Origin: Trebouxia sp. TZW2008 | Lineage: Eukaryota > Chlorophyta > Trebouxiophyceae > Trebouxiales > Trebouxiaceae | Assembly: GCA_002118135.1 (NCBI GenBank) | Contig: BDIU01000366.1 | Coordinates: 62,001-126,000 of the forward strand | Direction: 5' to 3' | Length of the DNA stretch: 64,000 bases | In this document: in pieces, positions 7,301 to 63,700 of the stretch | How positions within the stretch are numbered: position 1 is the stretch's first letter | Layout: every line of letters starts with the position of its first letter | Program-made: the position numbers and the translations under genes | The notes under the pieces: model-generated | The model's database searches: none | The model's input: only the letters and a program-made list of their open reading frames with translations | What the model was told of the DNA's origin: nothing

Positions 7301-8456
7301 CAATTGTAGTGCATAGTGCCCGCATGTAGCTTGCTCATGGTACATAGCACTGCGTACAACCCATGATGAATGGTGCTAGCCAGAGGTTCACAAAAGAGCA
7401 AATGCAATCAATGTCAATGAAATTTCTGCATTTGTACCAGCTGATGCAGGCATGCAGGTTGATCTGTCTCAAGACAGATCAACTTCCTCAACACTCCAAA
7501 ACCTTGCAACAGCTTTAGATGCATGAAATAGGCACGCATGCAAATGAAGCCTCAGGACCTCCAGACATACATCCAGCTGCTGATGACACCGCGCTCTTGC
7601 AAACAACAAGGTTCTGTTGAGCTTCAGCCAATGTCAGGTAGTTGGGTGCAAGTGCTTCCAGACTGCACTCTGGCGTAAGATCTCCCCAGCAACAGCAAGC
7701 AATGTATACTCACAGCTGTGATGAGGACCATCACCACAGTGCAATTTATCTTGAACTGCATCGAGCAGAGGCCTCACCAGCAACAGCATGCAGTGCAGAT
7801 TGAGCGCTGCAATCAGGACCATAATTACAGTCCCCTGAACCAGATCATTACGTGCAATAACCACTGAGACACTGCATAGGTATAAAAGCTCACCAGCAAC
7901 AGCATGCAATGTAGATTCAGAGCTGCAATGAGGACCATGACCACAGTGCCTTGGACCAGGCCACTGCGCTTGAAGGCATACGGCAATCCCAAGACACCAG
8001 CTCCAACAACTGAGATGAAGAGATTGGATGCAGCCCTGACAGACAAGATCTTCTGAATCTGCAGCAAATGTCCGGCAGTTAACGTGTGTATGGGACAGGA
8101 ACGAAAGCTGAAGCTGCCACTCTACGTAACAAAGTATTGCACAAGTGTGAAGCTGTGGCAATGTACATGCATGTCAGCCAAGTCTCTGAAAGATGCTTTG
8201 CATAAAATGTGCTCACCTTCTTGTGAGGTGCTATTCCTTCCTCAACATCCCTTTCTTGTAACAAGCTTTCTTCAGGCCCTGCGAGCCTCTGTCTGCTGGC
8301 TTCGATCTCGCTGACACCTTCATGGTTGCTTGCGGTGGAAGTCGAGGTCTGTCTGCTGATCTGCAGCGGTGAGTACCGTCTGAAAGGCCACGCACTTGGC
8401 ATGCACCTGCTCACAACGTGCTTGCGAAGTCCGCTTACCGCGTCCTCTGCAGACAT
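4368..8456 (-). CDS. AVT3-like vacuolar amino acid transporter (AAAP family, SLC36/38-like)
   Basis: Multi-pass transporter of the amino acid/auxin permease family, most like plant AVT3 proteins that export neutral amino acids from the vacuole. Nine exons join in frame to 448 residues, normal for the family: 8439-8456, 8217-8360, 7894-8058, 7135-7258, 6550-6723, 6142-6374, 5499-5669, 4741-4952, 4368-4473. A hydrophilic N-terminus of about 54 residues is followed by the family hallmark NLFISVVGAGVLGLPYAFKR in the first membrane helix. Later segments include ILSQSG/FCVAYMVFIAQN, GVVIYSYEGIGMILPVEASM and a C-terminal helix DIFLIVFGTVGAICGSAQ. The intron after exon 5 uses a GC donor (TTTTAG/GCAAGT), required by the reading frame. 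The first intron (82 nt) is also open, so exons 1 and 2 could be fused. Substrate is inferred from family. Confidence 0.88.
5043..5110 (-). mobile_element. 5'-truncated non-LTR retrotransposon tail, copy 1
   Basis: On the plus strand this reads GCTAGACAGGCTCAGCAGGC followed by CCAGCTAGATATGTACTGGA. It matches 29068-29150 and the tail of the reverse-transcriptase fragment at 34497. It lies in an intron of the AVT3-like gene and is the shortest of the three copies, as expected of 5' truncation. Confidence 0.6.
7685..7960 (-). repeat. Triplicated exon edge in the AVT3-like gene
   Basis: Three tandem copies (about 7889-7960, 7779-7850, 7685-7757) of the exon 3 end encoding GTVVMVLIAALNLHCMLLL with its donor site. 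The upstream copy is the functional exon. The middle copy still reads as protein (MVLIAALNLHCMLLLV) and keeps the GGTGAG donor. The third has diverged. Spacing is about 100 bp. Confidence 0.85.
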
Positions 8457-8962
8457 GACCTTTATGCTGACGGCCTGCTGGCTATTGAGTTGCGCGACGT
8501 CCCTGAAGTCTCGCTGCTAGCACCTGTTCAAGCCGGTTCACGACCACGCTTGTTATGCGCTCGAGTCTGCAGTGACGACAGGTACACAGTCGAGTATTCC
8601 TGAGTGCGCAGCTCCGTGTCATGCAAAGACATTCATTCAGTGCCTGTCTTATCGCGTACGCCGGGAACGCTGTGTTGCCGAGCGCAACAACCCGGTCGCG
8701 AGCTTAATGCATGACTAAAATTGAGCAGCAATTTTGAAAACGCATGCGAGGTTTTTGGATCCCGAGAAAAAGTTTGGTTCGCCTTCAGCGCAGGTGTCAT
8801 GTGGGTAGTATCGATGCTGCGTCGCGCGACTTTGCTTGAGCATGCGTACTTGTAGCAGAAGCCCTGCTTGAGCTGTGACACTTGATCTGGAGGTTCTGAC
8901 GGGGGTTTGCTTTGTTCCGGTGAGGTAGCTGTCCGATCCATCAGGTGGGAAAGCATCCTACG
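8457..8962. promoter_or_regulatory. Divergent promoter region, AVT3-like / ANTH genes
   Basis: 506 bp between two start codons on opposite strands, so it must hold both promoters and 5' untranslated regions. It has more CpG than the introns nearby. No specific element can be named. Confidence 0.5.
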
Positions 8963-11900: not shown

Positions 11901-14900
11901 TGCTGGTGATGTACGCTATGATGCATGCTTGCAACATGCTGCTTCACTTTAAGCCTTGTCCATGCTTTGACGGCTGAGTGTACACTGACGCCTTTCAGGC
12001 TGGTCCATGCAAACACTGATACTGGGCATCAAACACGAAATTTCAATTCTATGTACCTGTTGACTGTTTGTTTGATCATCACTTCTCAAAGTCACTGCTT
12101 CTGACCAGAAGGTTTGCTTTCTGCATCCAGAGGAGTTTGCCATTGAGGAAGGGCAGAAGGGCTAAGGTGGGAAGGAAGGACCCGTCAGAGGGCTTTGCTG
12201 ACGTGAAAGCTCCTGTCATGACGCTCACTGGCGTAGACTTTTCTTTTCTTTCTGACCACTTCTGATCCAAATATACATGGTCTGCATGCAGAGGAGTCCA
12301 CCACTGAGGAAGGGTACAAGGGCTAAGGTGGGAGGCAAGGACCCATCAGAGGGCTATGCTGACATGAAGGCTGATCCTGGAATGGTGCTCAACTACAAGC
12401 CTCAGGAGACACCACAGCCTCAGGCGGCAGCAGCTCAGCCAGACCTGCTTGACTTTGATGGGCTGTCTATGGACAGCCCTGCTACTGCCAACGGTGCACA
12501 GGTCAGAATGCTGTTTGTTGTTCTTGCGTTGCAAGCTGCAAAGCTTGCAAGCCTCAACTGGCAGCAGCACAACCAGACCTGCTTGACTTTGATGGCCTGT
12601 CTATGGGCAGCCCTGCTGCTGTCAACACAGCACAGATCAGAGTGCTGTCTGATCTTGCCCCATGATGCAAGCTGCAAACAATTGTATGTAACAGCTGGCA
12701 GCAGCGCAAATGGACCTGCTTGACTTTGATGGGCTGTCTATGCACAGCCCTGCTGCTGCCAATACTGCATAAGTACGAATGGTGTTTGTTGAGCTTGTGA
12801 TGTAAGCTGCAAATGACTCCAAGTTTCAGACCGCAGCAGCACAGCCGGGCCTGCTTGATTTTGATGGGCTGTCCATAGACTGCTGCTGCCAATACTGCAC
12901 AGGTTAGACTACGTAGCATTTTGAATGGGTTCCACGCTCCTCAGAGGTAATTGCTTGTTGAACATGCTTTTCTTGCTAGCTGAGAGACCGCTGGCTGGTC
13001 ATGTCCTACCCGCTTGTTATGCAACGCCTCAAGGCCTCTGTGCATGAATACTCTGCTGGCCCTCAGAAACTGCTTCTCTTGATGTATAGAACAGCATCTT
13101 AGTGCATGGTGTCATTGATGTCTGATGCGTTAGAGCACCTTGCAATTTCTCCACTTTATAGCATTCATGTATTGGATGTTTGCTTTCATCGGCTGAATCA
13201 AATTTTGTAGACTCTCGGTCAAGGATTACAATCAGACGGCACATCAAGAGCCAAAGTCTTGTGGTTGTTGAATGACTGAACAAATTGCTACAGGCAAATG
13301 GTGCGCCATCAAATGCCAGCTACCTGGATCTGTTGGCAGATGCTCCTGGGCCTTCAGCAACAGCCTTTGACAGCAATGACAACAACCAATTTGGCGGACA
13401 GCAGAGCCAGTTTGGTGGACAGCAAGCAGCACCTCAGCAGACTGGGGCTTTTGGCAACCAACAAGGAGGGCAGTTTGGAGGTCAACAGGGGTCTCAATAT
13501 GGACATGGAGGGCAGTTTGGTGCAGCATCTCAGCCTGCAGGCAAGCTCTCTTTCTGCAGCTCAATGACCATGAGCCTCCTGTAGTTCAGTGCTGCACCAT
13601 TGCATTGAGTAATCATGTTACTTTATGGAGCCTGAGACGCTGCAAAGTGTTGACATGTGATATCAAGCCTGCTGCTGCTGGCTGATGTACATCTTTGCAT
13701 GTCTGCTGCATATGGGATGTTGCCCTTCATGATCCAACACAAAAGGGCAATGGGCGCGGCAAACAATGTGTATTTCTTGCTGTCAGAGGTAGTGTTGCTG
13801 AGCAACACAGATCTGCTTCAGCTGTGTTGAGTCTCTGAACAGACGCTTACAGTACACAATCATTACAGCCACAAGAATGAGACAGACTTGCAGGTGGAGT
13901 GGCGATGTATTTCTCCAGGGTCAAATCTCACATAACCTCACACTAGCTCAAATGCAGACTCCTAGTTCCGGACCAGTTATGCTCACAATGATGACAACTT
14001 GTGCAGGCCAGAATCCCTTTGGTGCACCATCTGGTGCTGCCCCAACATCCAACCCCTTTGCCAACTCAGGGGCGGCAGTGGGTCAGGCTGCTTACCATCA
14101 GCAGCCTCAGAGCGGATTTGGTCAACAAGGAGGCTTTGGCCAGCAGCAGTCACAGGGCGGCTTTGGTCAGCAGTCACAGGCTAATTATGCTCAGCAGTCA
14201 CAAGGAGGGTATGGGCAGCAGTCTCAGGGTGGCTACCCTCAGCAGAGCTTTGGGGGTGCCCAGGCAAGCCTTTAAAGTGTGCCTGCATTGATCGCCGCTG
14301 CATGAACATTGTCGGGTGTATTTGTGCTGGGTCGCAAAGGCTGTGCAAACATTCATGCCTGTGTTTGTGCATGCTATTAAGCACGAGGCCAGGTCAGGAT
14401 GAGGGGGGTGGGGGGGGGGGCTTTCAGACAGCTCGTCAGCACAGCAAATGAACGAAGAATGCCATCATTCTGCTGTGATTGTCAGATATTCTTGCCTTGA
14501 TTAAGCGCTTCATGTATCGTATCTTGAGGAACATACCAATCCCCTTTGATGCCAGTGACTTGGCTGCTGAGACGCTGATCACTGCTAAGGGCATAAGACT
14601 CCAGAATGCTCAGACACTGAGCATGCATTCACAGGGTGGGTATGGTCAGGGTCAAAGCATGGCACCCCAGGGCGGCTTTTCATCTCAGAATGGCTCCCCC
14701 TTCAACAGCATGACAGCAGGCACTGGAGGTGCCTCACCCTTGGCTCAGGGCTTTGGTGGGGGTCAGCAGCAGCAGCAAGCGGGAGCCCAGCAGACTCCTC
14801 CTCGTGCACCCACCAGGAAGGAGGCTGCAGCTGTGCATGACCCTTTTGCTGCATTGACAGGTCAGCAAGATCTTGGCATCAGTTGTGATTTTGATACTAG

Positions 14901-17048
14901 CACACAATGCAGCTGTGCATTAACAGTTCGAGTTGGACTGGAGGGTGCAATCCAGTAGCAAACACATGTATGTCCCTGAAGGTCTCGCTGTGTCATGTCA
15001 AGCAGTTGACCGCTTGTAAGAAGGCAGCACTAAGACAATAGTTGCTTTGTCAATCGTCAGCACAAAGAGCATACAAGCTATAGAAATTGTTGATAAGTGC
15101 TGCTTGCAACAAGTTTCAGCAGCATGTGCTTGCTAGCTTGTTCTACAACATGTACCAACTTTCGTTGAAAGCTGATTGCACATGCGTAATGGACTTGTTT
15201 GTGAAAGCTAGTGATCCAGCTGTAGGCTGCAGGCAAAGAGACTCTGGGTTGCTGTTTGTGATGTGTTCATGAAGCCGCGCAGCCCAGAGTCAAAGCGTGC
15301 TTTTCATGCCATACTATCAAGCATCATCTGCTGCAGCAGCAATTGCATCTAGGCATGGTATTCTGAAAACATTGGTATGCCCATTGACTGCACTGCAGCC
15401 AATCTGTCCTCCACGGTGGAGTCCTCTACCTGCTCAGGACATGCTGTTGCCTTTGAGCACTATGGTGGTCTCAAAGGTGACACCATGGCCTAAGCAATAG
15501 AGGACTTCACACCTGTGGACAAAGTGCCTGTGATGCAGCGCCAACGAGCACACTTTCTGTACAACAATCATATCACTGCAGCCAGTTTGTGCTCCCAGGT
15601 AGAGTCTTCCACCTGCCTAGGTCGTGTGTTCCCTCCTGAGCACTGCGGTGGTCAAGAGGGACACCATGACTTGGGCAAAAGGCGATGCTACTGTCAACAA
15701 ACTGGCTGCAATGCAGCACCAAGGGACGCACTCACTGCACAACAACAATCCTGTAGCCAGTTTGTCTTCTGTCAATGATTTGGCTGTAGTGCAGCAACCA
15801 AGGGGCACACTCATGGTACAGCAACAAATGACTGAAGTTAATCCCTCCTGTTGGGGCAAGCACATAAGGGACCCTTGCTAGCCTTCACCTTGGCATGTTC
15901 TACAAGCGTACTATGTGCAGGCAGCTTGTTGCATTTGCACATCAGCGGCTAGGTTCTTCAGCTCGCATGTACTGCCCTTCTGTGAATGCATCATCTGTTG
16001 CCAGTTGCAGGGGCATGCTGCTTTCCTGACTGACTGTCTACCACCTGTTGGCTATGTGTGCAGGACTCCGCAGCAGCAAGGAAGACAACAAGCCCTCCCC
16101 ACCCTTGAGAGCCTCCCCTGCTAACTCCTACACTGCTGGGCAGCCATCCAACATTCAGGTCGGATGTACATACCACTCTATGCAATTGATACTCATGTGG
16201 TAGTTGCCTTTGCTGCAACATTTTTGTGGCTGGAAAGCGTGACTGTTCAGGTGAATGGGCATTTTACAATGCGCCATGCCATGTTCTGTGAGTGCCTCAA
16301 AAATGTAGAACACCTTGCTTCTTGGTTTCTTGTGCAGCGTCAGGGTTCCATTGTGCTGCAAGTAGGGCAGACACACACGAGCTCTTGTTGCTGTACGGGA
16401 GGCTGCGTGCATGTACGCTGTGCAAGTCTACAGTATATACTGCTACGATCAGAGTTTCATACGTACCCTGTCCCATGTTGGTGGTACAACTGCTGCATTC
16501 ATAGGGTGTCAATGAGCATGCTGTGCAAGTCTGAAGCAGGAGCTATCCAAAGTTATGTGTATGTCATCATATGGCACCCCAGTTAATGTGTATATCTACA
16601 CAATTTGTCAGCAACAACATGAAATGCTGATTGGTTTGATGCAGGGTGGGCCTAGCAACCTGTCCCCAGCAGCAGGTGGGGGCATTGGGCGTGGGGGTAC
16701 ACCTGTGGTGGGTGGGTACCAAGGGGCTCCTGGTGCCAGCCCTGCCCCATTCTCAGGCTACGGTCCTGGCACAGGTAAAACAACATGCCTGCACTTGTTG
16801 AAGTCAGCTGGAAATTAGCAGCAGATTTCTTGTACTGTGGCCAATTGGCTAGGCATCCACAATATGCACTGTGCTTCAGGATGCATTGGTCATATTATGT
16901 ATTGAATCTGCTGCTGCTGCTGAATGAGTGCATTGTATTGACTGTAGGTAACGCCACGGTCCAGGTTGGTCCAGCAGCCCAGAAGGTTCAGCAGGACAAT
17001 GCATTCCACAACTCCTTTGCACAGGATAACGGCAACAGCCTGCTGTGA
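8963..17048 (+). CDS. ANTH-domain clathrin assembly protein (AP180/CALM type)
   Basis: Endocytic adaptor that binds PI(4,5)P2 through an N-terminal ANTH domain and recruits clathrin, AP-2 and EH-domain proteins. The ANTH part starts at 8963 (MATSTLSTADKTRQAARQ) and includes AVVKSTAAQFHVVPKEKHVR (9204-9269), the lipid-binding K...KxKH motif, then TALKTLMVVHRLMRESNI (9815-), RFEFSEWVRAYGKYLDEQ (10209-) and a helical exon at about 11250-11580. The tail is low in complexity: a clathrin box LLDFD (12445), Gln/Gly-rich FGGQQ/FGQQ repeats (13390-13550, 14100-14265), two NPF motifs for EH domains (about 14010 and 14055) and a DPF motif for the AP-2 ear (about 14840). It ends at NSLL and TGA 17046-17048. 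Exon 1 is 8963-9082 and exon 2 is 9198-9270. Some tail exon borders are uncertain because of the tandem copies at 12128-12905. Confidence 0.88.
12128..12375 (+). repeat. Duplicated exon start in the ANTH gene
   Basis: The acceptor side of a tail exon occurs twice, at about 12128-12215 and 12291-12375. Both begin GCA(T)..AG/AGGAGT and encode close versions of RAKVGGKDPSEGYADMKA (upstream copy RAKVGRKDPSEGFADVKA). Spacing is about 163 bp. Either acceptor could be used. Confidence 0.8.
12418..12905 (+). repeat. Four tandem copies of the clathrin-box exon edge
   Basis: A unit of about 135 bp is repeated four times, with the LLDFD codons beginning at 12445, 12579, 12716 and 12851. Each unit contains the exon end AAQPDLLDFDGLSMDSPA plus following intron. 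Copies 1 and 4 keep a donor (CACAG/GT); copies 2 and 3 have lost theirs. Copy 4 has a short internal deletion. Confidence 0.9.
15390..15860 (+). repeat. Intronic tandem repeat in the ANTH gene
   Basis: About 180 bp units containing GCAGCCAGTTTGTGCTCCC, a GAGCACTGCGGTGGTC segment and a GACACCATG segment recur two to three times with substitutions and a shortened last copy. They lie in a long intron between tail exons (about 14860-16640). Unlike the other arrays, no exon edge was recognised in the unit. Confidence 0.65.
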
Positions 17049-29430: not shown

Positions 29431-29454
29431 GCTACAGTTGGTGAGACCCTTTCA

Positions 29455-29664
29455 GCTGTAACATTAACTTCTCTTTGTAAGGACACTCAGTGCAAGGACT
29501 CAGCTGTTACATCAACTTCTCTTTGTAAGGACACCCAATTTAAAAACCTTCTTGAGTAACCAATAAATGCGCTCTGACTTCAGTGGCAACTCTGAGTAAG
29601 GATAGTCTGATAAGAAAATGTGTTCTTGGGGACCAAAGCAGTCTTTACAAGAGAAGTCGCTGTA
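29455..29664. mobile_element. TIR element (MITE-like), copy 3
   Basis: A longer copy starting about 25 bp after the stop codon of gene B. The left end is present twice (29453 and 29501, both with ACTTCTCTTTGTAAGGACA). The right end reads TTTACAAGAGAAGTCGCTGT. It should be part of the 3' untranslated region and supplies TGTAA motifs, the usual polyadenylation signal in green algae. Confidence 0.7.
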
Positions 29665-44879: not shown

Positions 44880-47800
44880 ATGGATGCTTCAGTGTATGCC
44901 TGGGCATACAGCACACCTATTTTCATGAACGTATCCCATTTGGAGCCTTTGGTGGGTGAAGACGTACAGGCCACGCTAGAGGAGCTGTTTTCAGACTCCC
45001 AGCCTCCCACAACGGGCGATGAAGATATGACAGGGATTGAATGGTTGGCAGGCCCACCTGCAGGTGACTTGCGTGAAACAGCGCATAGCACTCACGACTT
45101 GTTGCGTTGCGTCTGACTAGATTACTCACGAAACGTTGCTCGCAGTGCCTGAGCCAACTTCAACACCCACAGCGGCAGCATTTCTGGCAGATGACAGTCA
45201 GTCTTGTGGCCCGAGCTTTTGCAGTGCAGCTGACCTAGGCATTCTTGCTGCTGAATTATTTGACTGGCCAGCTTCCGCAGCCACCAACAAGCAGAAGGTT
45301 GAGCAGAAAGTCATAGAGTTCACAACAGCTGGCCCCTCACAGGTCTACGCCACTGCCTCAGCGCCTCACCTCAGCACCGCTGCAGCACAGCGTTTGCCAC
45401 CTAGCCACGTCAATGCTGCACCTAACATGCAGCAAGCCTCCAGCAGCACTGCAGACAGGTCAGCCAGTGCGCCCCTCATGTCTCAGCCTTATGTCCAGAT
45501 GCAGCCCCCACCTCAGAAGAAGCCTGCCCAGAGTACGGCTTACGGTCTGGACCCTATGTCTGTCCAGCTTGATTATGGCATGCCTCCAAGGCCTACACCA
45601 CAGCCAACTGCTAAGCCGGTAGCAGCTTCTGGTGGTGCGCCAGTGGACAGTCAAATCAGGTACCGCCTGCCAATTCCCATCAGACAGCCCATTGCACAGC
45701 TGGCAGATGACACAGCAGCTGACCCTGTCATGCAAGCAGCGATCTCAGCAAATTTGCAGACAGGCAGCATCAGCCAGAAGAGGTCACAGAACACTGCCTC
45801 ACAGGCGCTCAGCGGTACTGCTGCAGACCTAGGCATTGTCTCACACAGCAATGGCACCAGCACAGCAGTGCAGGCTGCTGCACCTGATAGTCCTGACACC
45901 TTTGCAGCACATCTAGATGCAGCAAACAGGGGCAAGGGAGCACCAGCCTCTAGTGGACGTGCCCAGAATGGGTATCAGCACAAGGCCTCAAAGGCACTCA
46001 GCAACTCTGCTGCAGGCCTAGGCACTGTGTTTCCAACTGACGGCACCAGCACAGCAGCACAGTCTGCTGAACCCATCATGGATGACACCTTCGCCAAATT
46101 TCTGGATGAGTTAATCGCAGACGAGGCAACAGCAGCGCCTGGTGAATTTGACGCAAGTCTGCCAAGGTCAGGGCCTGCCCGCAAAGCCAGCCGCCCTACC
46201 AATTCTTCAAGATTTCAGCCTTATGCAGTGCCAGAGAAGAGGGCACCTGCAATAGGCAGAATCACAGGCAAGGCTGGGAGTAGTGACTCTCCCATAGATC
46301 TGGACAGCTTTGTCCCCACCTCAAGCGTTGACCTGGCTATAGAGAGGTTCAACAGGGACGCAGCTCGCCCAGGTTCTTTGGCTGCAGCAGCTCTGCACAG
46401 AGCTAAAGCTGCACCAAGGGGGGCTGCTTCAACTGTGAACAGGCCAGACCTCAGCAGCACATCACAGCGCTTTCTTGCAACTTCAGGGGTTGACATGGTG
46501 ACTGCCAGTCAGGCCAGGTTCCCTTCAGCACATGCAAATAGGAGGGCAGCCCACAACATGCCCACATACAACCTCAGCACAGCAGGCCCTTCTGCTGCAG
46601 TTATCAACACGTTGAGCACCGTCAGCAGTCAGGGCAGCATTAATGCAGCAGCAAACAGACCAGGCGTTGTTGCAAGTGCCCAAGTCCCTGACAGCAATGT
46701 CAGAATGACTGTGAAGACCAGTGCAGCTCCAGGGGCGGCACCTGGCCAGAAGAAGAGGAAGGCGCCAGAGGCAGGGGCCCCCGCTGCAGCCCTTATGAGG
46801 GGCAACTCGGGGACTGGCCCTGAGACCCCCACCGTAGATCTGGAGGACATCCCCTTGAGTCAGAGGGCTTTCAAGAGGGTCAAGAGGGAGGCTCCTCAGC
46901 AGCATGAGTCAGCACTCAACCGGCCAAGTGCTCAGAGTGGCTCAGCGACTCAGTTCCATGCTGCAAGTGGCAGGGCAGAGCAGTTTGTCAGTGCCCCAGG
47001 GTTGGCTGCAGGTAATCACAGCAAAATTTTTCATCTGTTTTGGCACTGTGGGCTCATGATTACGACATTTGTTCTGCAAACTGTCCAGACTATCTTAGAA
47101 AATCTTGCCTGGAAACAAGAAATTTGTGCTTATATCAGTAGATTCACTGGAATGTAGTGTTCAATGTAGCAATTCATGTATGGGTTGGCATGAAGAGCTT
47201 GATGTAATGTCTCAACGTGTGGCTGCAGGGGCAGGTGCAAGGCTGGGAGAGGTTGTCTGGGCCAAGATGGGTCGGGACCCTTGGTGGCCTGCACAGGTCA
47301 GTAGATATGTTGTTTCACATGCAATCTGATGGCAAAATCTACTGTGGTGTGTTTGTGAGCAGCACCAAAGCTTTTTGTGCCTGACAAGTCAAGTCTGTGT
47401 GTGTACATCTGATGCGTGTCTTGTTTGATGTTGAGCACTGTATGCCTGTATGTGATCGGCGCGTTCCTCAAGACCTGCATCATGATTTCCTATTGTTTGC
47501 TGCTGTCAAGACAGGAATCAAAATTTGTAGCACAGCTCAATTGACTGCAGCAATCCAAATGTTGTCTGCAATGTGTTCATCCTGCTGCTTCATGCTGCTC
47601 TTGTGCAGTCAGCCTAAGCTATCACGTTCATCTGCAGATCAAGAAGCCACTCAACAAGGATCTCAAAGCACTGCGCGAGGTCTTTGAAACCGCATATGCA
47701 AGAGAGCTGGACAGCACTGCTGTACATGTTTCCTTCTACGGTGATGGTCACCAGTGCGCATTTCTGCCAGCAACAGCGATTGAAGCATGGAACACAGACA

Positions 47801-48320: not shown

Positions 48321-51300
48321 ATGCTCAGCATGTCTCTTGCAGTGCATGTCCATCCAGATGTGTGTGCAGTGTGCTTGACTGCGCAGAGCTTGCAAGTGTC
48401 GACAAGTTGCAATTGTCTGTGCGACACGCGTCTGTGCATACGAAGAGACATCGCCGTTCTGCTCGAGGGCCGCAACATGACAGCGGACACAATTCGATGG
48501 CCTCAGGACTTCGCCTCGCTCACCCGTCACGCCATCCCTTTGCACCTGTTGGACCTGTTATGTCGGGAAGCGGACGCGATAGCCAAGTGTGACAACTTTT
48601 GGACATCTCAGGTGATGGCAGCGTGCAAGTGGCACGCCAAACAAACACTGCAGCTGTCCAATTGCCGGCGATGCAGGAAACAATCCAGAACACATCAGCG
48701 AGTACTGCCTGGGAGCTTGCCATTTCACACATTCATGACAAAATCGTAAGGCATAAGCTGTCGAACAGCTCGGCAGGCGCGGAGTGGTGGGTACAGGTGG
48801 CGACGCTAAATCGCTGGAGACACCACGCATCCTTGCTAGCTTGTGCATGCAAGATGTCTTTTTGCAACATGCTGCAGGTTTACGAGCCTGGCAAGGGCCT
48901 GGCGTTTCACTTCGACAAGGACGAACATGCCATGAAGGAGCGGCACCAAATGCTTCAGCCTGTGTTGTCTTCAGTGCTCTACCTGACAGGCGAAAGCACA
49001 GCTGAGCGGTTAGGTAAGCTATACAGACACGATGCATGCTTTGTGCTGGTCAAATCAAATGCCAGCATTCCTACTGTCTACAGAAGTAGCCATTCATCAA
49101 AACGTCAGCTCAGCATCACCTTTGTCATGATCAGTCCTGATAGACAGCAGCGTGCATGTGGAACTTTATGCCACGTACTCGTACAATCTTATGTAGTTTC
49201 ATGTGCTGATGGAAAGTAGACAGTCTGATTCCCACATGACTGCACACCTGCTTGTGACATGCCATGTTGTGTGCTATAGTTCCGACTTGCCATGAGGTTT
49301 CTGATTAGCTGTCAGCTTGTTGCAGGACCTACAGCCATTGTTGATCAGGAATATGATGCTGAGCAGCACAAGGCAGTGCCAGACAGCCCGAGCAGAACAG
49401 CCCTTGTGTTCCCCAGCAGAAACAACTACGTTCTGTTTGATGGACGGCTGGGTCACGGTGTGCTAGGCTCATCAAGTCAGCAGCCACGCATGACAATGCT
49501 GATCAATTGGTGGGCTGAGAAACCTCAGGTACAATGCCATCATTAGTGCCAGTGAAGTGGAACTGATGCTGCTATCAACTCGTGCCATCACGCCTGCGCC
49601 TCTGCAATGCACCATTGTCATTTGGCCCTATGAAGTACTCTCAACTACACAGCTGTGCTTGTGATCAACTGCAACTTTTCACCGTTCAACAGTGAGCCGT
49701 TAGAGCTTAGTCGGCAAACAAAGACAATGCGTGACTTGCAAGGAGTGAACGTGAACCAACAAGCAGTTATAAGCTGTGAGAGACGATGTTTGCTTGTATG
49801 TATCAATTGCTGTGCGTTTCTCTGACCACCTTGACTATCTCATGTGCACGACCTTGACACTTGTGAATATCTGCAGACATACTCAAGCCCACGTGTTGTC
49901 CCCACTCTGCACTGAGGTCTGAGTAATCTTGAGCTTGTGCCTGTGCATGGATGGTGCAACTGCGCACATTTGCCAGGAAGCAAGGCAGCGTTGATGCATG
50001 CTTAGTGCAAATTCTTGAGAACCCTGCACAATCAGAGTTATCATACAATTGTTTCCACAATGCCTTACTAGTCTCTTTATTCAAATGAAGTTTACATGAC
50101 GTAAACCCACATCCATATGTCAGAACAATTTGTGTTGAATGGCTTCAACCAAGTTGTTTCATGTCAGCTCCTCAAGCGTGCAGGACGTCAATCCCATTCC
50201 GGACCATGTCATCAAGCAACACGCATTGACTACCCTCAGTCCCAGCAGCAACCGCGCCCCCGAATCTGATGCGCATGACAGCAATTGCTCCAACAAGGCC
50301 ACAACTGAGCTACCTTCTCAGCTACAGCAAGTCAGCCTTGATGAGGCAAACAGCAGCAAAGCACAGGCGTCTCCAGAGGACCAGAGCCACACCAGTGCTC
50401 ACAGCTTTAGCAGCAATGGAGATCATCAGCAGCAGGCAGCTGCAAGCACACAGTTTCCCTCCTCAACTATCTCAGAAGCAAAACGTGCAGAGGAAGGTCA
50501 GCATGACAGCAGCACACAGGCTTCAATTCCAGAGCTGTCATCTGTGCGTCAGCTGCATGATGGTGCAGCACTTGAGCATAGCAATGCAGCTCAACAGCAA
50601 ACAGATAGCAAGCCTGAGCAGCTCAAAGTGCCATGTGTCAGCACCGCTGGTTGGGATGAGTCACCTGTGGCGGTGAGTGCCTATACCAGCATCCTTTTGT
50701 CTGTCAAAGATGTCTAGGCTAGCGATGAAATCTTGCTAGGTTGAAGACGTAATGCATCAGATTCTTCTGAGCATGAGTTGTATGGTGGAGCATGCAGAGC
50801 ATATTTCTATGATGGCATCTTGCAGGCTGTTGCTCACTCGGTAACAGTCAGCAATTATTTGCGCACCACCATTTGAGTCTTAGCATACTGTTTGTTGTAG
50901 AGCTTTCATTGACAACTGTGCGCCACAACGCTGGGGGTGATGTGTTGGGTATTGAGTGCATGTTGGTGTCTTTGGGCAAGTTTGAGTCAGAACGATGTAC
51001 AAGCAAAAGACTGGAGACTAATGCAGCAGTTGGAGACCCGATGAACTTGAAAATCACATGCAAGCAAAACTTGCCATGTCTATCCGCAGGTCAATGACGT
51101 CCTACAGACCTATGACCTGCACTTTGCAGGACCCCAGACTGTACATGCTGTTGTCATTGACCATTGAAGCAAGTGCTGTGATGTCTGTCTGTAGGTGGAT
51201 GCGGTGCTACAGACATGTCGCCTGCAATCAAGCCTCAAGCTGTACATGCTATTGCCATTAACCATGCAAGCAAGTGCTGTGCTGTGCTGTCTGTCTGTAG

Positions 51301-51583
51301 GTCGATGAGGTCCTACCATGCTGTTGCCATTGACTATGCAAGTGAGAGCTGTACAGTCTGTCTGTAGGTTGATGAGGTGCTACAGACATATGGGCTGCAC
51401 CTCACAGGGCCTCAAGCTGTACATGCTGTTGCCATTGACCATACCGGCTTTGAGCTGTTTCCTCTGGATGAAGAGAACTTGCAGGCAAATGCAGGAAATG
51501 TTGTTACTGCAGCTGCCTTTGTTCCAGCAGGGCTTGTCTGTGATGAGTCTGATAGTGCATCACAGTCTGATGACAGCAGCTGA
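48321..51583 (+). CDS. 2-oxoglutarate/Fe(II)-dependent oxygenase (prolyl hydroxylase-like fold)
   Basis: Six exons (48321-48611, 48677-48796, 48878-49013, 49326-49528, 50184-50672, 51368-51583) join in frame to about 484 residues. Catalytic motifs of a double-stranded beta-helix oxygenase are visible: the H-x-D iron triad part in GLAFHFDKDEHAMKE, the distal histidine in NYVLFDGRLGHGVLG, and the 2-oxoglutarate-binding arginine in PRMTMLINWW. The spacing suits this superfamily. The region after residue 250 (exon 5) is Ser/Gln-rich and probably disordered; exon 6 adds a short C-terminal piece QTYGLHLTGPQAVHAVAIDH. The start is uncertain: ATGs at 48321, 48330 and 48474 are all in frame. Substrate unknown. 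The acceptor of the last exon is preceded by three tandem copies. Confidence 0.82.
51067..51440 (+). repeat. Four copies of the last-exon start of the oxygenase gene
   Basis: The acceptor and exon start (TGTAG/GTTGATGAGGTGCTACAG at 51368) are preceded by copies at about 51091, 51194 and 51301. The first encodes VNDVLQTYDLHFAGPQTVHA then IDH and stop; the second has a frameshift; the third is internally deleted. Spacing is 67-107 bp. Each copy keeps a CAG or TAG acceptor. Confidence 0.9.
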
Positions 51584-52624
51584 GATGGACATAATCTTCC
51601 CCGATGTGATCTTCTTGTTGATTTGAGTCAGCAGTCAGCAGGATACGTATGTGTGATTGAGACAGCTTGTACAAGAGACTGTTCACCCTGCTGCTTCAGC
51701 TTCGAATTCGGGATCAAAGCTTGGGCACGAGAATGTCTGCAGACGTTTAACAGTGCCAAACTTATGCACATGAAAACAACTGAAGCGTTAAATTACAGGT
51801 TGAGATGGCGTCTGTAGCTGCCGTTGTTGCTGAAGCTGGTATGTCGAAATAGTGTCTGCAGCTTCGGGACAGAATCTTATGCAATTGAATTGCCGGCCAG
51901 AATTCTGACGAAATTCACCAGCTAGCAAACGCTTGTCTCTTGCATGTCAAGGGCACACAGTAGTCCGTGTCAAAATACTACATGAACCTTGCCATGATCA
52001 GGGCTTGCGTGTACAGTCAGTCTTTGTTTGATGCAGAAGCACACTCCTCATCGCTGTCAGAAACTAACGCATGTACATGTACATGTGCTGATATTTACAG
52101 ATACAGTGCCATATCATCTACACTGCAAGCGGGTTCATATCAGATGTTTGCAAAACAGCAAGGAACAGACAGCTCAGAATGCAAGCAGTGAATATAGCTA
52201 GTCATTAAAGCTGCAGTCAAGTCAAAGTCACAAAGATTCAGCCTGCTAGCAGAAGTCCATTCAGGACAGGCAAAGCTGTATGGACGTCAATGATTATCGT
52301 GCTTGTACACCTGCATAGTACTTGTGTCAACTTGGTAACACAGCGTCAGATTCCAGCCTTGCTAAAACTCTGAACCGCACAGTAGCTTCAGTGCACTGTA
52401 GTCTGCTGTGAGTAGGACCACATACTAGCACTGCCAGGAACTTGCTTTTTTTAAGGCTTTTTCTTGTCCCTTTGCCCATTGCAAAGATTGTTGAGCTGCT
52501 CCTGCAACAACAGTCGCCTGTTGCTGGGTTCCTTTCTGTTACTGCAACAAATTTTGGGCTGCTTCTCAAACAACAGTTGCCTGTTGCTTGTGCCGCCCTA
52601 CCGCCAGAAGTTCTGGGCTGACTC
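51584..52624. other. Intergenic region between convergent genes
   Basis: Holds the 3' ends of the oxygenase gene and of coiled-coil gene C. The part from about 52500 is a repeat derived from the last exon of gene C. No other exon recognised. Confidence 0.45.
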
Positions 52625-52685
52625 TCAGACAACAGTCGCCTGTTGCTGACCCTGTCCTTGCTGACCACCAAAGTTCTGGTCCTGG
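52500..52685 (-). repeat. Tandem copies of the last exon end of coiled-coil gene C
   Basis: A unit of about 62 bp with CAACAGTCGCCTGTTGCTG and (A/G)AA(G/T)TT(C/T)TGGGCTG occurs three times (about 52625-52685, 52563-52624, 52500-52562). The first is coding (NFGGQQGQGQQQATVV and stop); the others lie beyond the stop. Confidence 0.85.
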
Positions 52686-55600
52686 TTGAGCTGTCCTGGA
52701 CCTGAGTTTAGGTCCTGCTGGTTCTGCCCCTGGTTCTGCCCTTCACCCTGGTAACCCTGGCCCTGACCCTGGCCTTGGCCCTGGCTCTGGTTCTGCATCA
52801 CAACTCAGGGGGTTTGCAACAGCTTCAGGAATGGCTCCTGACAGAAAGCAGGAAGGCAGTCCTGCGTTCAAATTTGGCAACTCTGCATGTTGAAACCATA
52901 CAGCCAAACAGTAGTTGTGTACCACACAGGACCTCAAACAGTTGCAAAAACATGCATGGTGCAGACGTATCTTCAAGCTATAGCACAATTGCCTGATGCT
53001 TGTGAATGGCAAGGCAGTAAAGAGGATTGCGCACATGGAAATGAGTAGCAAGACCACACCTGCTCAGCGCTGCGTTTATCTCAATGATGATTATGTGCAT
53101 GTGCATGTGCAGAAGCCCAACAGTGGGCACACACATCATGATGATGGCACTGAGATGGATGAGTTCCACTATAGCAAGCATGTACATGTACATGTACATG
53201 TCGATGATGATGATGATGAGTGTACTACACACCTGCTCAGCGTTGCGCTCGTCCTCAATGATGATGGGTCCCTGCATGTGCTTGTTCAGGGTCTCCTCGG
53301 TCAAGGGATGCACCTTCTGGCCTGTCTCCAAAGCCTCCTGCCACAAGGCAACCTCACGCTCCTTTGCTGCCTCTGCCTCCTTCTTGGCATCTGCACGCCA
53401 ACAGCAACACTTCGCATGCGGACTCCTGATATAGCTTGCACTGACAGCACAAGGTGCATTGAACTGCTCTGCATTAACAGCTGTCTGCCGCAGACGTCGT
53501 CACAAAACAGGACTGAGTACACAAGGCTCCCGCAACAATCTTGAAATACTGAAAGGGAAAGTTGCCTGACCAGTTCTGCCTCCTTAATGGCATCTTGCAC
53601 ATTATACAGCATCCCAGCGTTCACCAGCAGCATCACAGCAGAACGTCCACAAACCTGTTACAAATTTGACATTGTGCAACATTGTGCAATGCATGTCAAG
53701 GCGGCCAATGATGTTGGCAGCTGTGTCAGTACTCAGACCAAGCCACTGATGCTGTATCAAAATCTGCTTGTCTGGATATGGCATACAGCACCAAACCCAG
53801 TCAAGCAAACTTCACGACAGCACCAAACAGCTCAAGCAACAATGTGCTACACCATTGCGTGCCATGACCAGCTCTTTCTTGACTTGTTGACCATCAAAAG
53901 AATCCAACAATGCACAAGTCCACAGTCCAACTGCCGCGTGTTTGTAAAGATCTGTCAAAATGGCAGATGGTTTGAATGACCACAGGCCAGCAAAAGACCA
54001 ATCATTTTGTGGTCAATGAATGACTGCTTGTGGATAAGTAGATCACTGATATCTTGAACAAGGAACAGATGACTGATAGAGGGAAGAAGACTGACCAGTC
54101 CACTTGTCAGCCAGCTGGTAGGCCAACAGGCGCTTCTCATCAGCAATGCGCCTGAAGGCTTCAGCCTCTTCACCCTGCCTCACTGACTTGGCCTCTGCCA
54201 TCTCAGCCTCAGCTGTGGCCACTGCATACTCCTGCACGCGTACACAGACACACATCAGCATGACAAGGTGATGCATGCACGAGCTTCCTTTCCCTGCCTC
54301 ACTGACTTGGCCTCAGCCATCTCAGCCTCAGCTGTGGCCACCGCATAAGCCTGCACGTTGCAAAAGGTACAGGTTAGATGAGTTGAGATGACTGAAGATG
54401 ACAATTGCAAGGCAACACATGCACGAGCTTGTTGTGTCTTTCCCAGTTGCAAAGTGCCAGCAAACAATGGTGACTGCATGCTCCTGAAATGCGTACTTGT
54501 ACACGTTTTGGTGAACACAATGCCGATGGCAATGCATGCAAGAGCCAACTTGCTGCACATTTAAATGTTGCACAGCTTCAGCATCAGCAATCTTGACCAA
54601 GAAGATTTGACAGCAGAATGCAGCCGACTGCTGAACTGTCTGTGCATCAAGATTAGTTTGCCTGCACAGACAGTACCTCAAACAGGCAGCAGGCGGCACC
54701 CCATCATGCCAGTAGTGAACTGGTCTGCCCCGGCTGCATAATTCGGGTACAGTCTTGCCCTATGCAGGATGGTCAATCTTGTTGCAAGTCACAGACGCAG
54801 TCAGTGCTGGTGTATGATCTCACCTGTGCCAGCTTGTCGACCTTGTTACGGGCCATGACCAGGTTCTGTGCGCGCTGGTCGAGCTGGCCGCGTCGCTCCT
54901 CGAGGGTGTGCGCCAGCTCCTTCGCCTCCTGGCTGACCGCTGCAGCACGCTCCTCGGCAGCGTCGGCATCCTGCTTCAGCTGCTGCAGCTTTGCCACCAG
55001 CCTCTCAACCTGCATAGCCGATCATACCATCTATACATTGCCATGAATGAAGTCTTTTGAACATTGCTACTAAGTGTGACGCCAAACTGCATATGTGTTG
55101 TTATGATAGAGTGACGTGCACCGCACCCACAAGCAGAGTAATATCGCCCTGCTGAAACACAGGGTCAAACTCTTGAGGCTGATGTCAGTGTTCACTAATC
55201 ATGACACAAGATCTGCAGTGTGACTGCGCAAGACTGGCAGTGCTCACACCACAGCACCAAAGCTTTGGGCATTGCCAATGTACTGTGGTGTGCGCTTTGC
55301 TAGTATTGGGCAATCACACTGCCCTGTTATATCACAATCTCTTGACATGCACACAACCCTCAAGGGCCTAGCTTGATCTCTAGCACAATGGAATATTTCT
55401 GCTCAAAGACAGCTTGATATCCCCACAGCTGTTGAGCAGCAAACCTGATCAGACAGCAAAAGGGCAGTGTAAGCGTTGATTAGCGGTGTCCTATCGATGA
55501 TAGACATAATGGCAAAATCTCAAGCTTTTTGTGTTGCTGTTGACACAACTTAAAGCTGTGCAGCAGATTTAACCCGCTGCCAGAAGCTTTACAATTCTAC

Positions 55601-57988
55601 CCGCAGCCAGAAGCGTGACAATTCTACCCGCTGCCAGAAGCGTGACAATTATACACGCTGCCAGAAGTGTGACACTTGTATACGCTGCAACAAATTCTGA
55701 CGGCTTGTGTACAACCTTCTACGCCAACAACAGGACAAAATGTATACAAGCAGCACACACACTGCATGATGTCTAATTTGGCGCAGGTCAAAATCAGCCT
55801 GATTGCAGTGACAGCCTTGTTGAACAGACATGTGTTGAACACGCATGTGTCACACCAGAAAGCAGTGATTCCAGAAGACAGACTGAAAGTTACCTCTCCG
55901 ACTTCAGTACGCTTGGCAACAGCCGCCTTGTTGACCAGCTTGGCCTCGTGAGTCTTGTAGCGTAGGTCGAAGTCAGCCTTCTCCAGCTCACGCTCTGAGG
56001 CAGCCAGGTCACGCACACGGTCATCTACATCACCCTTGGCATCAGACAGAGCCATCCTGCATGCCAATGATACCATTGTCAATTTGATCATAATCATGAT
56101 CACGGCAGAAATATTGACCATGTCCATCCATCATGACGACTATCATGACAACTGTTGAAATTTTCACACACTGTATTGCCAAAGATGCTTGTGACCATTA
56201 CTGTGATTAAGCTTCATGCCATCAGGCCAATGATCACTGTACATGAACGCTGTCCAGGGTGTAATGAGCAATCTCAAATGATTGCAACACAGCCCATGCT
56301 CAAGCATTGTCACCACAAGTGTGCAATGCCTGACCTTGGGCGTACCGGGAGGCCCTGCTGCACGAGTGTCGAGCTGTTACAAGCATTGTGTGCAGCTGTG
56401 TCGTTTGATTCTGTCACATGCTCTGCCCCTGAAATATACAGGTAGACCCTGGTTGCAGGCGTTCTAGTCCCTGGGCTCAAGAGAGTCAGATTGCCATATG
56501 AAGTGCTGACCTTGTGTCATACAGGTAGGCCCTGGTGCAGCCAGGCAGGTCCTTGGCGTCTGGTGAAAATATTTGTTTCACGAACTTTGCCATTCTGAGA
56601 GAAGTGGTGTGCAAAATAGTGATGAATGCTTGTCCTATCAGTAAACAGTTCTACTGGGGAAGCCAATGCATAGGCGTTGTTAGTGTAAAGACGCGATGGC
56701 TGACCTTGTGTCATACAGGTAGGCCCTGGTGCGGCCTGGCAGGTCCTTGGCAGCATTTCTGGTCTCCTGCTCCAGCTGCATGGCCTGCTCAGCTTCTGAG
56801 CGGGCCTCATTGCTGCGGCGTGCCAAGTCAGCGGCCTCGCGCATCTTGTACTCAACATGCCTGGCCTCGCGCTCAGCCTCTGAGATCTTGACGCGAGCAT
56901 GCTCCCACTGCAACAGCATTGCTGCGCTGACGAAAGGGTAGACTTTACTGACAGACAGCACAACTTTTGAGTTAACAAATGTCAGCAGTCTTGTCCATGC
57001 GGCGGGCATGCTGCATGATTTTGGTGCAAGCTTTCTGTCACAGCAGCAGGAGGCGAAGAAGCAAGGAGCACATAGACATGAGACATGGCTACACATGATG
57101 CAGCAAGTTCTGGTGTGCTTTGCAGCATGATGAGTACTGAGCGTGTACTTCTGCAAGCTTGAACGATTACGAGTGGTGGACATCAAAATAAGACTATCTC
57201 CAAACACACAGCTGGCGGTTAAAATTTCAATGATGCTCAAAATTGCATGAAGTCTGCTCAGCCTGTGAGTGATGTATGCCACCCTACTTGTGTCAATGCT
57301 GTTACAGTACGTCAGCCAAGTTAATAGATTTTGCTGTCTACCTGCTGGCCAGCCTCATCATAGTGAGGAACTTCAGCTGTCTCAAGGCGCTTCTGCACAA
57401 TCTTGGACATTGCCAAGTTTCCAGCCTTCCTGTGCCTGCTGCCAAGCTCATACTCGTACTCAGGAGTCTTTGGCTTGAACAGAGGGCCCTGCTCTGCGCG
57501 CAACCTGGCCTCTGCTTGTGTCTGCAACATGCAAACCAGCTTGTGACTAGCAGTCAGGCTAATTGCACAAAACAGACTTTTGCACGACAGCAATGCATCA
57601 AGTTGTGATAGTTGCTGTTTGCGGCCACCAACGGCCGGTCCAGACATGCAGCGAGCGTTGTTCTGGCACGGCTTAGTCATAAGCATGTACGCCTGCTCAC
57701 CAGAAAGCCGGGCACGACTGGCTTGAGCTCCACGTCGGGATCTTGCTTGAATCTGAAGAGCATGCGGTCTGCAGTTCGGCTGGTCTTGCGCGGGGTCACA
57801 GCCTGCCTTGGAAAGCCGCTCGGGTACAGCTCGTTCACATACTCGGGAACAGCACTGGACTGCAAGTTGTCGCGGCGCATGTGCCCATAGGTGTGGGTAC
57901 GAGCATGTGCATTTCCGTATCCAGATGGAGGGTACTTAGAGACGGAAGTGCCGATCTCGGGATCCTGAGTCCTCTCGACACTAGCCAT
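52625..57988 (-). CDS. Coiled-coil protein C with Gln/Gly/Asn-rich tail
   Basis: No named family recognised. The start is ATG at 57988 (MASVERTQDPEIGTSVSKYP). A Tyr/Pro-rich N-terminus (about 95 residues) leads to exons at about 57342-57522 (GPLFKPKTPEYEYELGSRHR), 56720-56910 (EAEREARHVEYKMREAADLA), 55893-56056 (DAKGDVDDRVRDLAASEREL), 54824-55011 (KLQQLKQDADAAEERAAAVS), 54098-54233 (EYAVATAEAEMAEAKSVRQG) and 53231-53391 (ALWQEALETGQKVHPLTEET). The final exon (52625-52787) encodes a low-complexity tail of NQ, GQ and QQ repeats ending QQQATVV. Long charged coiled coil plus a polar tail matches the build of genes A and B, though direct sequence similarity is weaker. Three of its exon edges and its last exon are tandemly copied. 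A structural or stress-related role is a guess. Confidence 0.7.
53055..53275 (-). repeat. Duplicated exon end in coiled-coil gene C
   Basis: The donor side of an exon (plus strand CACACCTGCTCAGCGTTGCG then CTCAATGATGATG, at 53230-53272) recurs at 53057-53098 as CACACCTGCTCAGCGCTGCG. The copy lies in the intron before the last exon. A GATGAT/ACATGT microsatellite separates the two. Confidence 0.85.
54150..54500 (-). repeat. Two to three copies of an exon start in coiled-coil gene C
   Basis: The acceptor side encoding YAVATAEAEMAEAKSVRQG occurs at about 54165-54240 and, nearly intact, at 54287-54360. A much decayed third copy (ACTGCATGCTCCTG) lies near 54475-54500. Either of the first two acceptors could be used. 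Confidence 0.8.
56430..56765 (-). repeat. Three copies of an exon end in coiled-coil gene C
   Basis: The exon end AAKDLPG(R/C)TRAYL with its donor (plus strand GTGTCATACAGGTAGGCCCT) is at 56710-56765, again at 56507-56560, and partly at 56430-56460. The second copy is nearly identical to the first. Confidence 0.9.
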
Positions 57989-60745: not shown

Positions 60746-63700
60746 TTATAGAAGCGTGATTGAAGCTTGCTTCGTGAGCAGTCTATGCAACTGGTCTGTC
60801 AGCTTGTCTAGCCTTGAAACAATAGTGTCTTGCCTGCTGGCAACAGCTTCAACCACTTGCAGCAGCTCTGCCTGCAAAATAAACGACAAGTGGTGAGCAT
60901 AGTAAGTGCTTTTGAAGCAATAGAGCAGCTGTCTGTCATGTGCAAGAATTGGTGACCAATCACTTGCTGGATGCAGTCTCAAGGGAACAGGTCAATGGTG
61001 AAAGTGACGCACAAACGAGCATGACAGATGCAATCATGGTCTCACAACAATGTGCACACGATGCTGCTGCTGGCGCGCTGCAGCAACGATGACAGCCACA
61101 AGTGTAAAGGGCAATTTGAGACTGCTTAGCTGATGCTATGCAAACTACTGGATCAGCTGCTGCAACGGCATGCAATCAACACCACAGTCTGCATGCTGCA
61201 GCAACACTATCAACCAGAACTGTGCAAGGTAGGCTGGGACTGCCAACTGGTGACAGTTACAGTGCTGAAAAAGCCACTGCAACAGCATGCAAAGCACTTT
61301 ACAGTTTGTGTGCTGTAGCGACACTCTTAGCCAGAAAGGCAGGCTGAAAGTGCCGACCTGATGCTGCGCAAACTGCTGGGTCAGGTGCTGGTTTGAGGCC
61401 TGCAAATCCTCTCTGAAGCCCATCAGCCTGTCTTCCATCGCCTGCTGGACTGCCTGCAGCACAACATCAGTCAAGCCATGATGTCTGCTAAGAGACATCT
61501 GTGGCGACCAAAGCAGGATTCTTTGGTTGATGCCTCATAAACTTCTTAAGCATATGCCGGCTTAAAATTGGGACATCCTTGGGCTATAATCTGAACCACC
61601 TGTGATAATCTTGCTTGACCTCAAGACATGCTGTGTATATGATTTTTGTCAGCAGCATGTCAAGAGCTGATGTCCAGGGCTAATAACAGGACAGCTACAC
61701 CTGGACTTTGTTGAGATACCATCTCTGAAAGTATTGACTTTTCATGCTGTTCTGACCTGGCAAGCGTTTCACGTTAGGTTTGGCAAAGAGTTTGCCCCAG
61801 ATTGCTGAATGCAGCAAGATAGTGTCAGGCAATTGACGCTATACTTGATACAAGACATAAGCTGGGCATCAGCATGCAATGAATCTGTGCTCTTGAGGCT
61901 TTGCAATATCCTGTTTGGCTGCCACGGCTTGTCGATACAAGCAACTATATAAATCCACCATGCAAGTGCATTAGTCTGAAGCAGACTGCCGTTAAGAATT
62001 GAACATGCAAAAAGCAGCAGGCAGAAGCATACACACCGCAATCAGCTGCTCTGACTGAAGCTGTGCAGATGGACCCATCAGCACGCTCCTATGGTCAAAA
62101 TGCATTTCACTATGCCCATGCTCCCTAGGGCTCTGATGCAATCCAGGGTGTATGCTTTGTGCCTGTGGAGTGTCTGCAATCACTTCTGCAGCTATGTCAG
62201 CCAGCTTGCTGTGGGTGTCTCCTTGAGCACCAGGGGTCTGATGGGGGTGGGGTTGGGGACCCTGTGATCTTTGCCAGATGCCGTGCACAGGGCTGTTGGG
62301 CCAAGCAGCCCCTGCCTGAGGGACAGGTGCCTGGGGCAGGGCACTTGAGGCAGGGCCGTCCGGTGCAGCCCCTGCTGCCTGAGGCAGGGCAGGAGGCACA
62401 GGACTGCTTGGCGCAGCCCCAGATAAAGGTGGCCTGCCAGCATCAGGCAAGGCTTGTGCTCCTGACTGTGACATCAGTCTTGAGGAATCTGGCTGAAGCA
62501 AACCAGGGCCAGCAAGAGTTGGGGTGCGCTGTTGGGCCTTGAGAGCAGGAGTGGCAAAGGTGAGTGTGGGTGTTGCAGCTTTGTCATCAGGCGTTGTGGG
62601 TTGCTGCTCTTGCTGAGGAGCTTCTAGACGCCTGCCAACCCCTGCAAGTCAAGAGTACAAGCTGTCAGGTGTTAACCTTCAAGAATGGGTTGCTTTGCCA
62701 AAATGTGGCAAGTTCTGACAACAAGTCAAGCTGAGGCAGCGCAGCAGTGAGCTGCTGTAGGCTTTCCTGGCTTTCAGCTCGAACAGCCTTCACTTCTATG
62801 CGTGGCTTTGCCGATCATGTCACTAGCAGCGCGTAGACTATTCTGTCTTGGCACAGACCACAAGCATGAATGCAAGCCTAGTCAAGTTCTTCAATGGCAA
62901 TACCTGCAGTGCTGGGTTGTTGAGCAGTGTCACTAGGCTTTTTGGCCCATGCCGCCAGTGCTGCTCTGGGGCCCAAATCAGGGAAGGTGGACATAGGGGT
63001 GGCTGCCGAGCTGAACTGAAAGCCTGACATGATGTTGGTGTCCAAAGGGGAGAACACTGCCATGGCTGCATTGTTGGCCTGCATGACAGCAGCCAGGGAT
63101 GGTTTGCCTGGATGTCAACTGTGTATTCAGCTCATTGCAAACGGCACTGGAGCACATGCCAGCATTGCCAAGAACACATGTCAGCTTAAGTTTGGCCTAA
63201 GCAGACTACATCCAAAAACATTCAAAAGAGATACCATGTGGTCTTCAGCCCATGCATAGCCCAGACAGTGGCAACGAACAGCTTGCAGGTGCTTACATGC
63301 GTTGCTGGTGCAGGCGTAGCGAGCATAGCTGAAGACTGCTCTGGAACCACAGTTGGTGGCATGGCATGGCTGTCAGCTGAGCTGTGCATGCTGTATGTCA
63401 CATGGAATGATTAAGTACATGCAGAAGCCAGATTGTGGTACTGCATATTGCTTACATGAGTTGCTGGTGCAGGCGTAGCAAGCACTGCTGACGACTGCTC
63501 TGGAACCACAGTTGATGGCATTGCGCTGCCGTCAGCTGAGCTGTGCATGCTGCGTCTTGCATGAGGGTCTGCCTTGACAGCCGTCTTAGCGGACTTTGCC
63601 ACTGCGGTGTGCTGCCAATGCAGGTCTTTGATTGGCTGAAGGCCAGGGCAGGTGGTCTGGTCCCAAGGGGCTGCCAGCTTTCTTGGATCGTACAGCAGCA

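Follow-up and report, generated by a model that had tools for sequence, protein, structure and literature searches.

The window analysed here is a 64,000-nucleotide stretch of the genome of Trebouxia sp. TZW2008 (contig BDIU01000366.1, positions 62,001 to 126,000, forward strand; assembly of 68.5 Mb in 527 contigs). Its genes include an amino-acid transporter gene (75% identity to Trebouxia sp. C0004, 69% to C0009), an AP180/clathrin-assembly gene (73% identity to Trebouxia sp. A1-2) and an ABC-transporter gene, and in the window short segments, many of them spanning one exon-intron edge, are copied head to tail. A first-pass annotation of the window had listed eighteen such loci. Self-BLASTN recovered 17 of the 18 starts, the remaining one (52500) being found by Tandem Repeats Finder (TRF) only; at 40350 and 56430 the BLAST match starts ~75 bases after the start first given. 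Altogether 47 forward matches <1 kb apart merge into 19 loci, the best matches having a spacing of 78-253 bp and an identity of 67-96%.

Splice sites throughout are predictions of a self-trained gene model (donors like CAG/GTAAGC, acceptors TGCAG/G, the slash marking the edge; median exon 117 bases, median intron 279 bases), checked for two window genes against near-identical spliced proteins; the three predicted proteins submitted to Pfam were supported there. Errors of the model are the fusion of three genes (10046-30331), segments present in protein P0002 that were missed, and some extra copies called as exons. GC stands instead of GT in ~13% of predicted donors, part of which may be gene-model error. 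At each locus the functional copy is the one assigned by the gene model, and the others are called extra copies. Proteins P0002 and P0125 are near-identical to the window exons; their contigs (<=1663 and <=2671 bases) are too short for the genomic introns, and they were therefore treated as spliced products.

The loci in the window are as follows (position, strand, description).

7676-7959, minus: donor edge followed downstream, within the intron, by two extra copies; exon 7894-8058 of the amino-acid transporter gene; BLAST; spliced protein P0002 has the functional copy only.
12120-12391, plus: acceptor edge with one upstream extra copy (12131-12229); exon of the AP180/clathrin-assembly gene beginning at 12292; extra copy not included in spliced protein P0125.
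12416-12908, plus: donor edge 12502 with three extra copies; 134-bp unit, exon end coding DLLDFDG; DLLDFDGLS once in P0125; TRF, BLAST.
15391-15827, plus: intron-only duplication, no splice edge, absent from the first-pass list; BLAST; 183 bp spacing, 73% identity.
25620-25856, plus: acceptor edge 25787 with one upstream extra copy; 91% identity over 81 bp.
26825-27017, plus: donor edge 26876 with a downstream extra copy that has a stop codon and GC for GT; BLAST.
27348-28488, plus: array of coding end (ASDQAAEQIPSIR), donor and intron start, ~9 copies by eye; nine matches by BLAST, the best with 70% identity across 894 bp.
28695-28902, plus: acceptor edge 28834 with one upstream extra copy; 88% identity.
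37455-38207, minus: array of ~99-bp units at the end of the ABC-transporter gene; stop codon at 38127 and no splice site in the gene model; no credible splice edge.
38561-39063, minus: donor edge 38988 (ABC transporter) with two extra copies; BLAST.
40423-40646, minus: donor edge 40599 (ABC transporter) with an extra copy whose donor is lost; BLAST; another copy near 40350 by eye.
42210-42365, minus: donor edge 42300 (ABC transporter) with an extra copy 78 bp away; BLAST.
45774-46073, plus: exon-only duplication, in frame, absent from the first-pass list; 189-bp spacing (63 codons), 75% identity.
51076-51442, plus: acceptor edge 51368 with upstream extra copies; BLAST.
52491-52648, minus: 59-bp array; TRF only, no BLAST match.
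53055-53289, minus: donor edge 53233 with a downstream extra copy; BLAST.
54173-54357, minus: acceptor edge 54232 with an upstream extra copy; both copies called as exons by the gene model, exon end present once in orthologues.
56505-56751, minus: donor edge 56705 with an extra copy; 96% identity over 53 bp; another copy near 56440 by eye.
61077-61336, minus: weak intronic repeat, no predicted edge within; 67% identity.
63290-63552, minus: donor edge 63456 with a downstream extra copy; 89% identity.

The pattern had been ascribed to seven neighbouring genes and proved far wider. A first sample of 305.1 kb, window included, holds 118 loci, and a held-out set of 40 kb fetched afterwards added 12 by the same BLAST pipeline. 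Main counts refer to 334 kb, without L003 (GC 0.415, 7 loci; used in the initial locus count, the identity histograms and the shuffle, excluded from all later tests and counts) and L020 (1.1 kb; excluded from placement tests), and give 123 local direct-repeat loci, a density of ~0.37 per kb of sampled genome or roughly one recognisable duplication per 2.7 kb. Order-1 Markov shuffles of 345.1 kb gave 0 loci by the same pipeline, so chance is excluded as the source of the repeats. Spacing has a median of 147 bp (quartiles 117.5 and 176) and lies between 100 and 200 bp in 86 of the 123. Across 28 stretches, direct matches number 159 at 30-300 bp, 91 at 300-1000 bp, 12 at 1-3 kb and 5 at 3-10 kb; inverted matches number 7 in total from 30 bp to 10 kb, with one inverted pair within 1 kb (L003 excluded). 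Noncoding-only loci are no sparser between genes than in introns (10 in 65.1 kb of predicted intergenic DNA, 14 in 182.2 kb of introns), and the best reading is of a general tandem-duplication habit, outside as well as inside genes and unspecific to the seven. The loci are unevenly spread (12 in L005; 7-9 in L004, L007, L015 and L029; none in L014, L021, L023 and L030), and some genes may be hotspots. L003 is AT-richer than the remaining sample and dense in tandem repeats.

Copies across the sample are 65-98% identical, and to this extent the first-pass idea of a continuous process stands; it is at odds with the scarcity of near-identical pairs, identity reaching >=95% in just 3 of 118 loci (L003 counted). 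This scarcity fits either older events or the collapse of young repeats in the assembly.

Overlap with splice edges is above expectation, and the first-pass idea is not refuted by its own check on this point: a predicted edge lies within a copy at 86 of 123 loci in the sampled 334 kb, against 62.1 ± 4.8 under random shifts, and 0 of 2000 shifts reach 86. In the window alone the count is 16 of 19 against 9.8 ± 2.0 (4 of 2000 shifts reach 16); locus 37455-38207 is counted there through a doubtful small opposite-strand gene call, which leaves 15 credible edge loci. Exon-only repeats make up 7 of 123, their spacing divisible by three in four, while random placement puts 693 of 6000 genic units wholly within exons (before detection differences); this points to selection against exon-internal events, on a small number and with out-of-frame cases perhaps hidden by the gene model.

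Extra-copy positions and codon counts come from 59 loci, selected so that the chosen copy contains a single edge and the match exceeds the spacing by at most 10, a rule that excludes arrays. Donor and acceptor sides are both affected (24 and 35 cases), in agreement with the first-pass annotation. In 53 of the 59 the extra is on the intron side: it precedes the acceptor in 33 of 35 cases and follows the donor in 20 of 24. The copy still joined to the body of the exon is thus the one kept, as expected of a simple tandem duplication. P0002 and P0125 hold the functional copy once, the extras at 7685, 12128 and 12418 being absent, and in the orthologues P0122 and P0123 the exon ends of 54150 and 56430 are present once. 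When eight extra copies were compared with orthologues to polarise the changes, 29 of 31 amino-acid differences were assigned to the extra copy (a few of the 31 lie beyond the duplicated segment, and one site is counted for two copies). Six residues common to functional and extra copy and missing in all compared orthologues, found in 3 of the 8 comparisons, suggest that those three duplications are younger than the split from the sampled species.

Among the 59 extras no second in-frame splice site was found beyond chance (lengths divisible by 3 in 3 of the 14 with a best site score >4); with in-frame second sites at chance level, extras as cassette or mutually exclusive exons are unsupported, and single extras could still qualify. 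Introns being gained, as first proposed, are not visible either. An end-to-end similarity test of 493 predicted introns left 48 above the 99.5% null level, 2 of those in register; both were rejected on inspection, looking like gene-model errors at ordinary extra copies, so that no new intron from such duplications is convincing.

Near the edge the exon part of the extras shows 82-83% identity. Among the extras, the donor GT survives in 33 of 55 and the acceptor AG in 51 of 73, near what the flanking identity of 82-83% leads one to expect. Intron flanks 6-15 bases from the edge have an identity of 0.42-0.64 against a baseline of ~0.25, falling with distance from ~0.6 to 0.35. A position profile of this shape is expected of a neutral copy next to a conserved exon. 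Identities from global alignment of the exon and intron parts were left unused, random intron pairs having scored 0.73. Splice-site-guided copying, RNA-templated insertion and cDNA conversion, at first suggested by homology ending ~8 bp past the splice site, were dropped as unnecessary, the flanks being above baseline and the splice sites not specially kept; two results count against dropping them, namely that the intron flanks of 43 pairs are barely above the null (11.6% exceed its 95% level) and that among the 30 extras whose exon part is best kept, 9 show an identity <=0.4 at intron bases 6-16. Copies differ at synonymous sites by pS 0.29 and at amino-acid-changing sites by pN 0.09; between one extra and another pN/pS is 0.55 (0.46-0.69). 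CpG is depleted in the whole sample (observed/expected 0.40), and in noncoding copies CpG-context positions differ ~3 times as often (0.38 vs 0.12), which may reflect methylation.

We favour, with a probability of about 0.66, a long-standing and general habit of local tandem duplication in steps of ~100-200 bp, roughly nucleosome length, filtered by selection and decay. Frequent head-to-tail duplications of this size would hit intergenic DNA, introns and exons alike. Exon-internal events would probably often be purged unless in frame, the numbers here being small; intron-only events would soon become unrecognisable, both copies being free to drift. A duplication across one splice site would be harmless, because the copy that runs on into the rest of the exon is the one spliced in and the other is removed together with the intron, and such an event would be recognisable longest, because one of its copies is conserved exon. 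Introns would thus gather decaying exon-end copies, splice sites included, on the side flanking the exon, and most extra copies would be neutral. In simulation an edge-spanning duplication is found 1.2-5.5 times as often as an intron-only one (1.2-4.3 times with neutral extras; the ratio varies with age and constraint), from which much of the edge excess follows; survival and recognisability can explain much, perhaps all, of it. Nucleosome and Okazaki lengths are both near the observed unit size, and on this ground replication-linked slippage or template switching seems the most likely mutational mechanism.

Several results weigh against this account. Between copies pN/pS is 0.31 (bootstrap 0.25-0.38; 265 synonymous and 265 amino-acid differences), below the 0.47-0.52 of simulations with neutral extras; wider copy sampling gives 0.38 (0.32-0.45), also below them. 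Stops in extras number 11 in 1278 codons (0.0086) against a simulated 0.012-0.015, and 7 of 47 loci (those of the 59 with four or more differences) are individually short of amino-acid changes (p<0.05). Of twelve simulation settings, the closest combines an omega of about 0.5 for the extra copy with ages of 0.1-0.5 substitutions per site, and none of the twelve reproduces all observed measures together. In pairs at >=85% identity homology ends ~8 bp past the splice site, whereas in neutral simulations with many young ages it reaches a median of 60-70 bp. Rough arithmetic on placement shares puts the density of edge loci per available base at ~5-6 times that of noncoding loci; the edge excess may exceed what decay explains, and a modest true preference for splice sites is possible. 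The purging of exon-internal events is thinly founded, seven exon-only repeats (four in frame) being too few as proof. Possible reasons for the low pN/pS are that some extras were used for a short time, that the copies already differed when they arose, or that the model errs.

A stronger reading, tentative and on balance unlikely, is of an unusually active duplication process whose step is of nucleosome length and which prefers exon edges; it would keep supplying introns with second splice sites and ends of exons, part of them temporarily used (omega ~0.5 in the best-fitting simulation). That the duplication mechanism itself favours exon edges, through R-loops, stalled transcription or chromatin change at exons, we regard as a little less likely. 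The overlap of 86 loci where 62.1 are expected speaks for it, as do the two-copy pairs at >=80% identity, which contain an edge in 41 of 54 cases against 21.9 expected, and the spacing near 147 bp could mean one nucleosome per exon edge. Against it, repeats in intergenic DNA are at least as dense as those confined to introns, much of the excess is predicted by survivorship and detectability, and the held-out 40 kb taken alone has no significant excess (7 of 12 loci against 5.2). The first-pass annotation had proposed such targeting by transcription or splicing structures; its interpretation is partly supported overall, its mechanism mostly not.

That the extras are in use, as alternative exon ends or as introns and exons being born by tandem duplication, is doubtful. 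The low pN/pS, the seven constrained loci and the often intact splice sites would agree with use, and there is the precedent of a potato gene in which an intron was gained from a duplicated intron end and exon start (PMC4974935). The extras are, however, missing from P0002 and P0125 and, at two more loci, from P0122 and P0123; second-site lengths are divisible by 3 in only 3 of 14, amino-acid changes are concentrated on the extra copy, and just 2 of 493 introns are in register, both doubtful.

An assembly artefact, with the ends of divergent haplotypes or strains joined in tandem, has little to recommend it. Copies do diverge like alleles (pS and pN as given above), and homology falls at exon edges as it does between species. 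Yet the three regions tested are each single-copy in the assembly, and no paralogue or second-haplotype source of the copies was found for the regions searched there. Arrays reach ~9 copies (by eye), N is present in only one (L005) of 29 fetched stretches, protein changes are polarised onto the extra copy, unlike between two functional alleles, and an artefact of this kind should not make exon-only repeats as scarce as the 7 of 123 seen here against 693 of 6000 random genic placements. Introners or other mobile elements carrying exon pieces would likewise adjoin splice sites within introns, and can be set aside, since every copy derives from its own adjacent exon and, at the two loci searched, 12426-12902 and 7600-8060 match only themselves genome-wide.

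Other repeats in the window are a dispersed repeat with TGTAAGGACAA units (978-1156, 26180-26355 and 29524-29654; copies 71-83% identical); a second short dispersed repeat (5044-5099, 29072-29145 and 34501-34564; ~84% identical); a clean tandem array (27-bp unit, 4.3 copies) at 55572-55688, within a predicted intron and away from an exon edge; and a CAGG tetranucleotide array at 42121-42196 in the ABC-transporter gene, coding in the gene model, probably wrongly.

Frequent partial duplication within genes recalls the internal gene duplication of Gao and Lynch (2009), whose cases reportedly concern coding duplications; most Trebouxia extras, by contrast, look non-coding. Loci 27348 and 37455, as arrays of ~100-250-bp units, resemble minisatellites or intronic variable-number tandem repeats, whereas many of the other loci show just two or three recognisable copies, tied to an exon edge. 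Introners, as outlined in PMC9860276, also add sequence to eukaryote introns; unlike them, the copies here have no dispersed counterparts at the two loci searched, and their source is the adjacent exon.

Tandem duplication is described as one of the leading proposed sources of new introns, with few proven cases (review PMC3443670). Cases in Drosophila (PMC2891723) and in the potato RdRp gene, where a duplicated intron 3' side and exon 5' side became a new intron (PMC4974935), share with the Trebouxia loci a local head-to-tail copy with an AG/GT splice motif; the potato gene is the closest published case, the same two parts being duplicated. Unlike in those cases, the Trebouxia copies lie inside existing introns and are skipped where checked, with no new intron demonstrated, and those cases are single events where the density here is ~0.37 per kb. 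At the level of listings, the literature searched holds no account of such duplications in Trebouxia; in the two Trebouxia genome papers searched by term 'tandem' is absent and 'intron' occurs in one reference title only.

Extrapolated from 0.5% of the genome, the Trebouxia genome would hold thousands of duplicated splice sites of differing ages. Such sites would show directly how often duplications give rise to introns (no visible case here), which site splicing takes when two are equal, and by what route introns grow longer. If duplication does favour exon edges and part of the copies are temporarily used, introns would grow from exon-edge copies, and the genome would be a large natural experiment on the choice of the spliceosome between duplicated sites and on the origin of introns.

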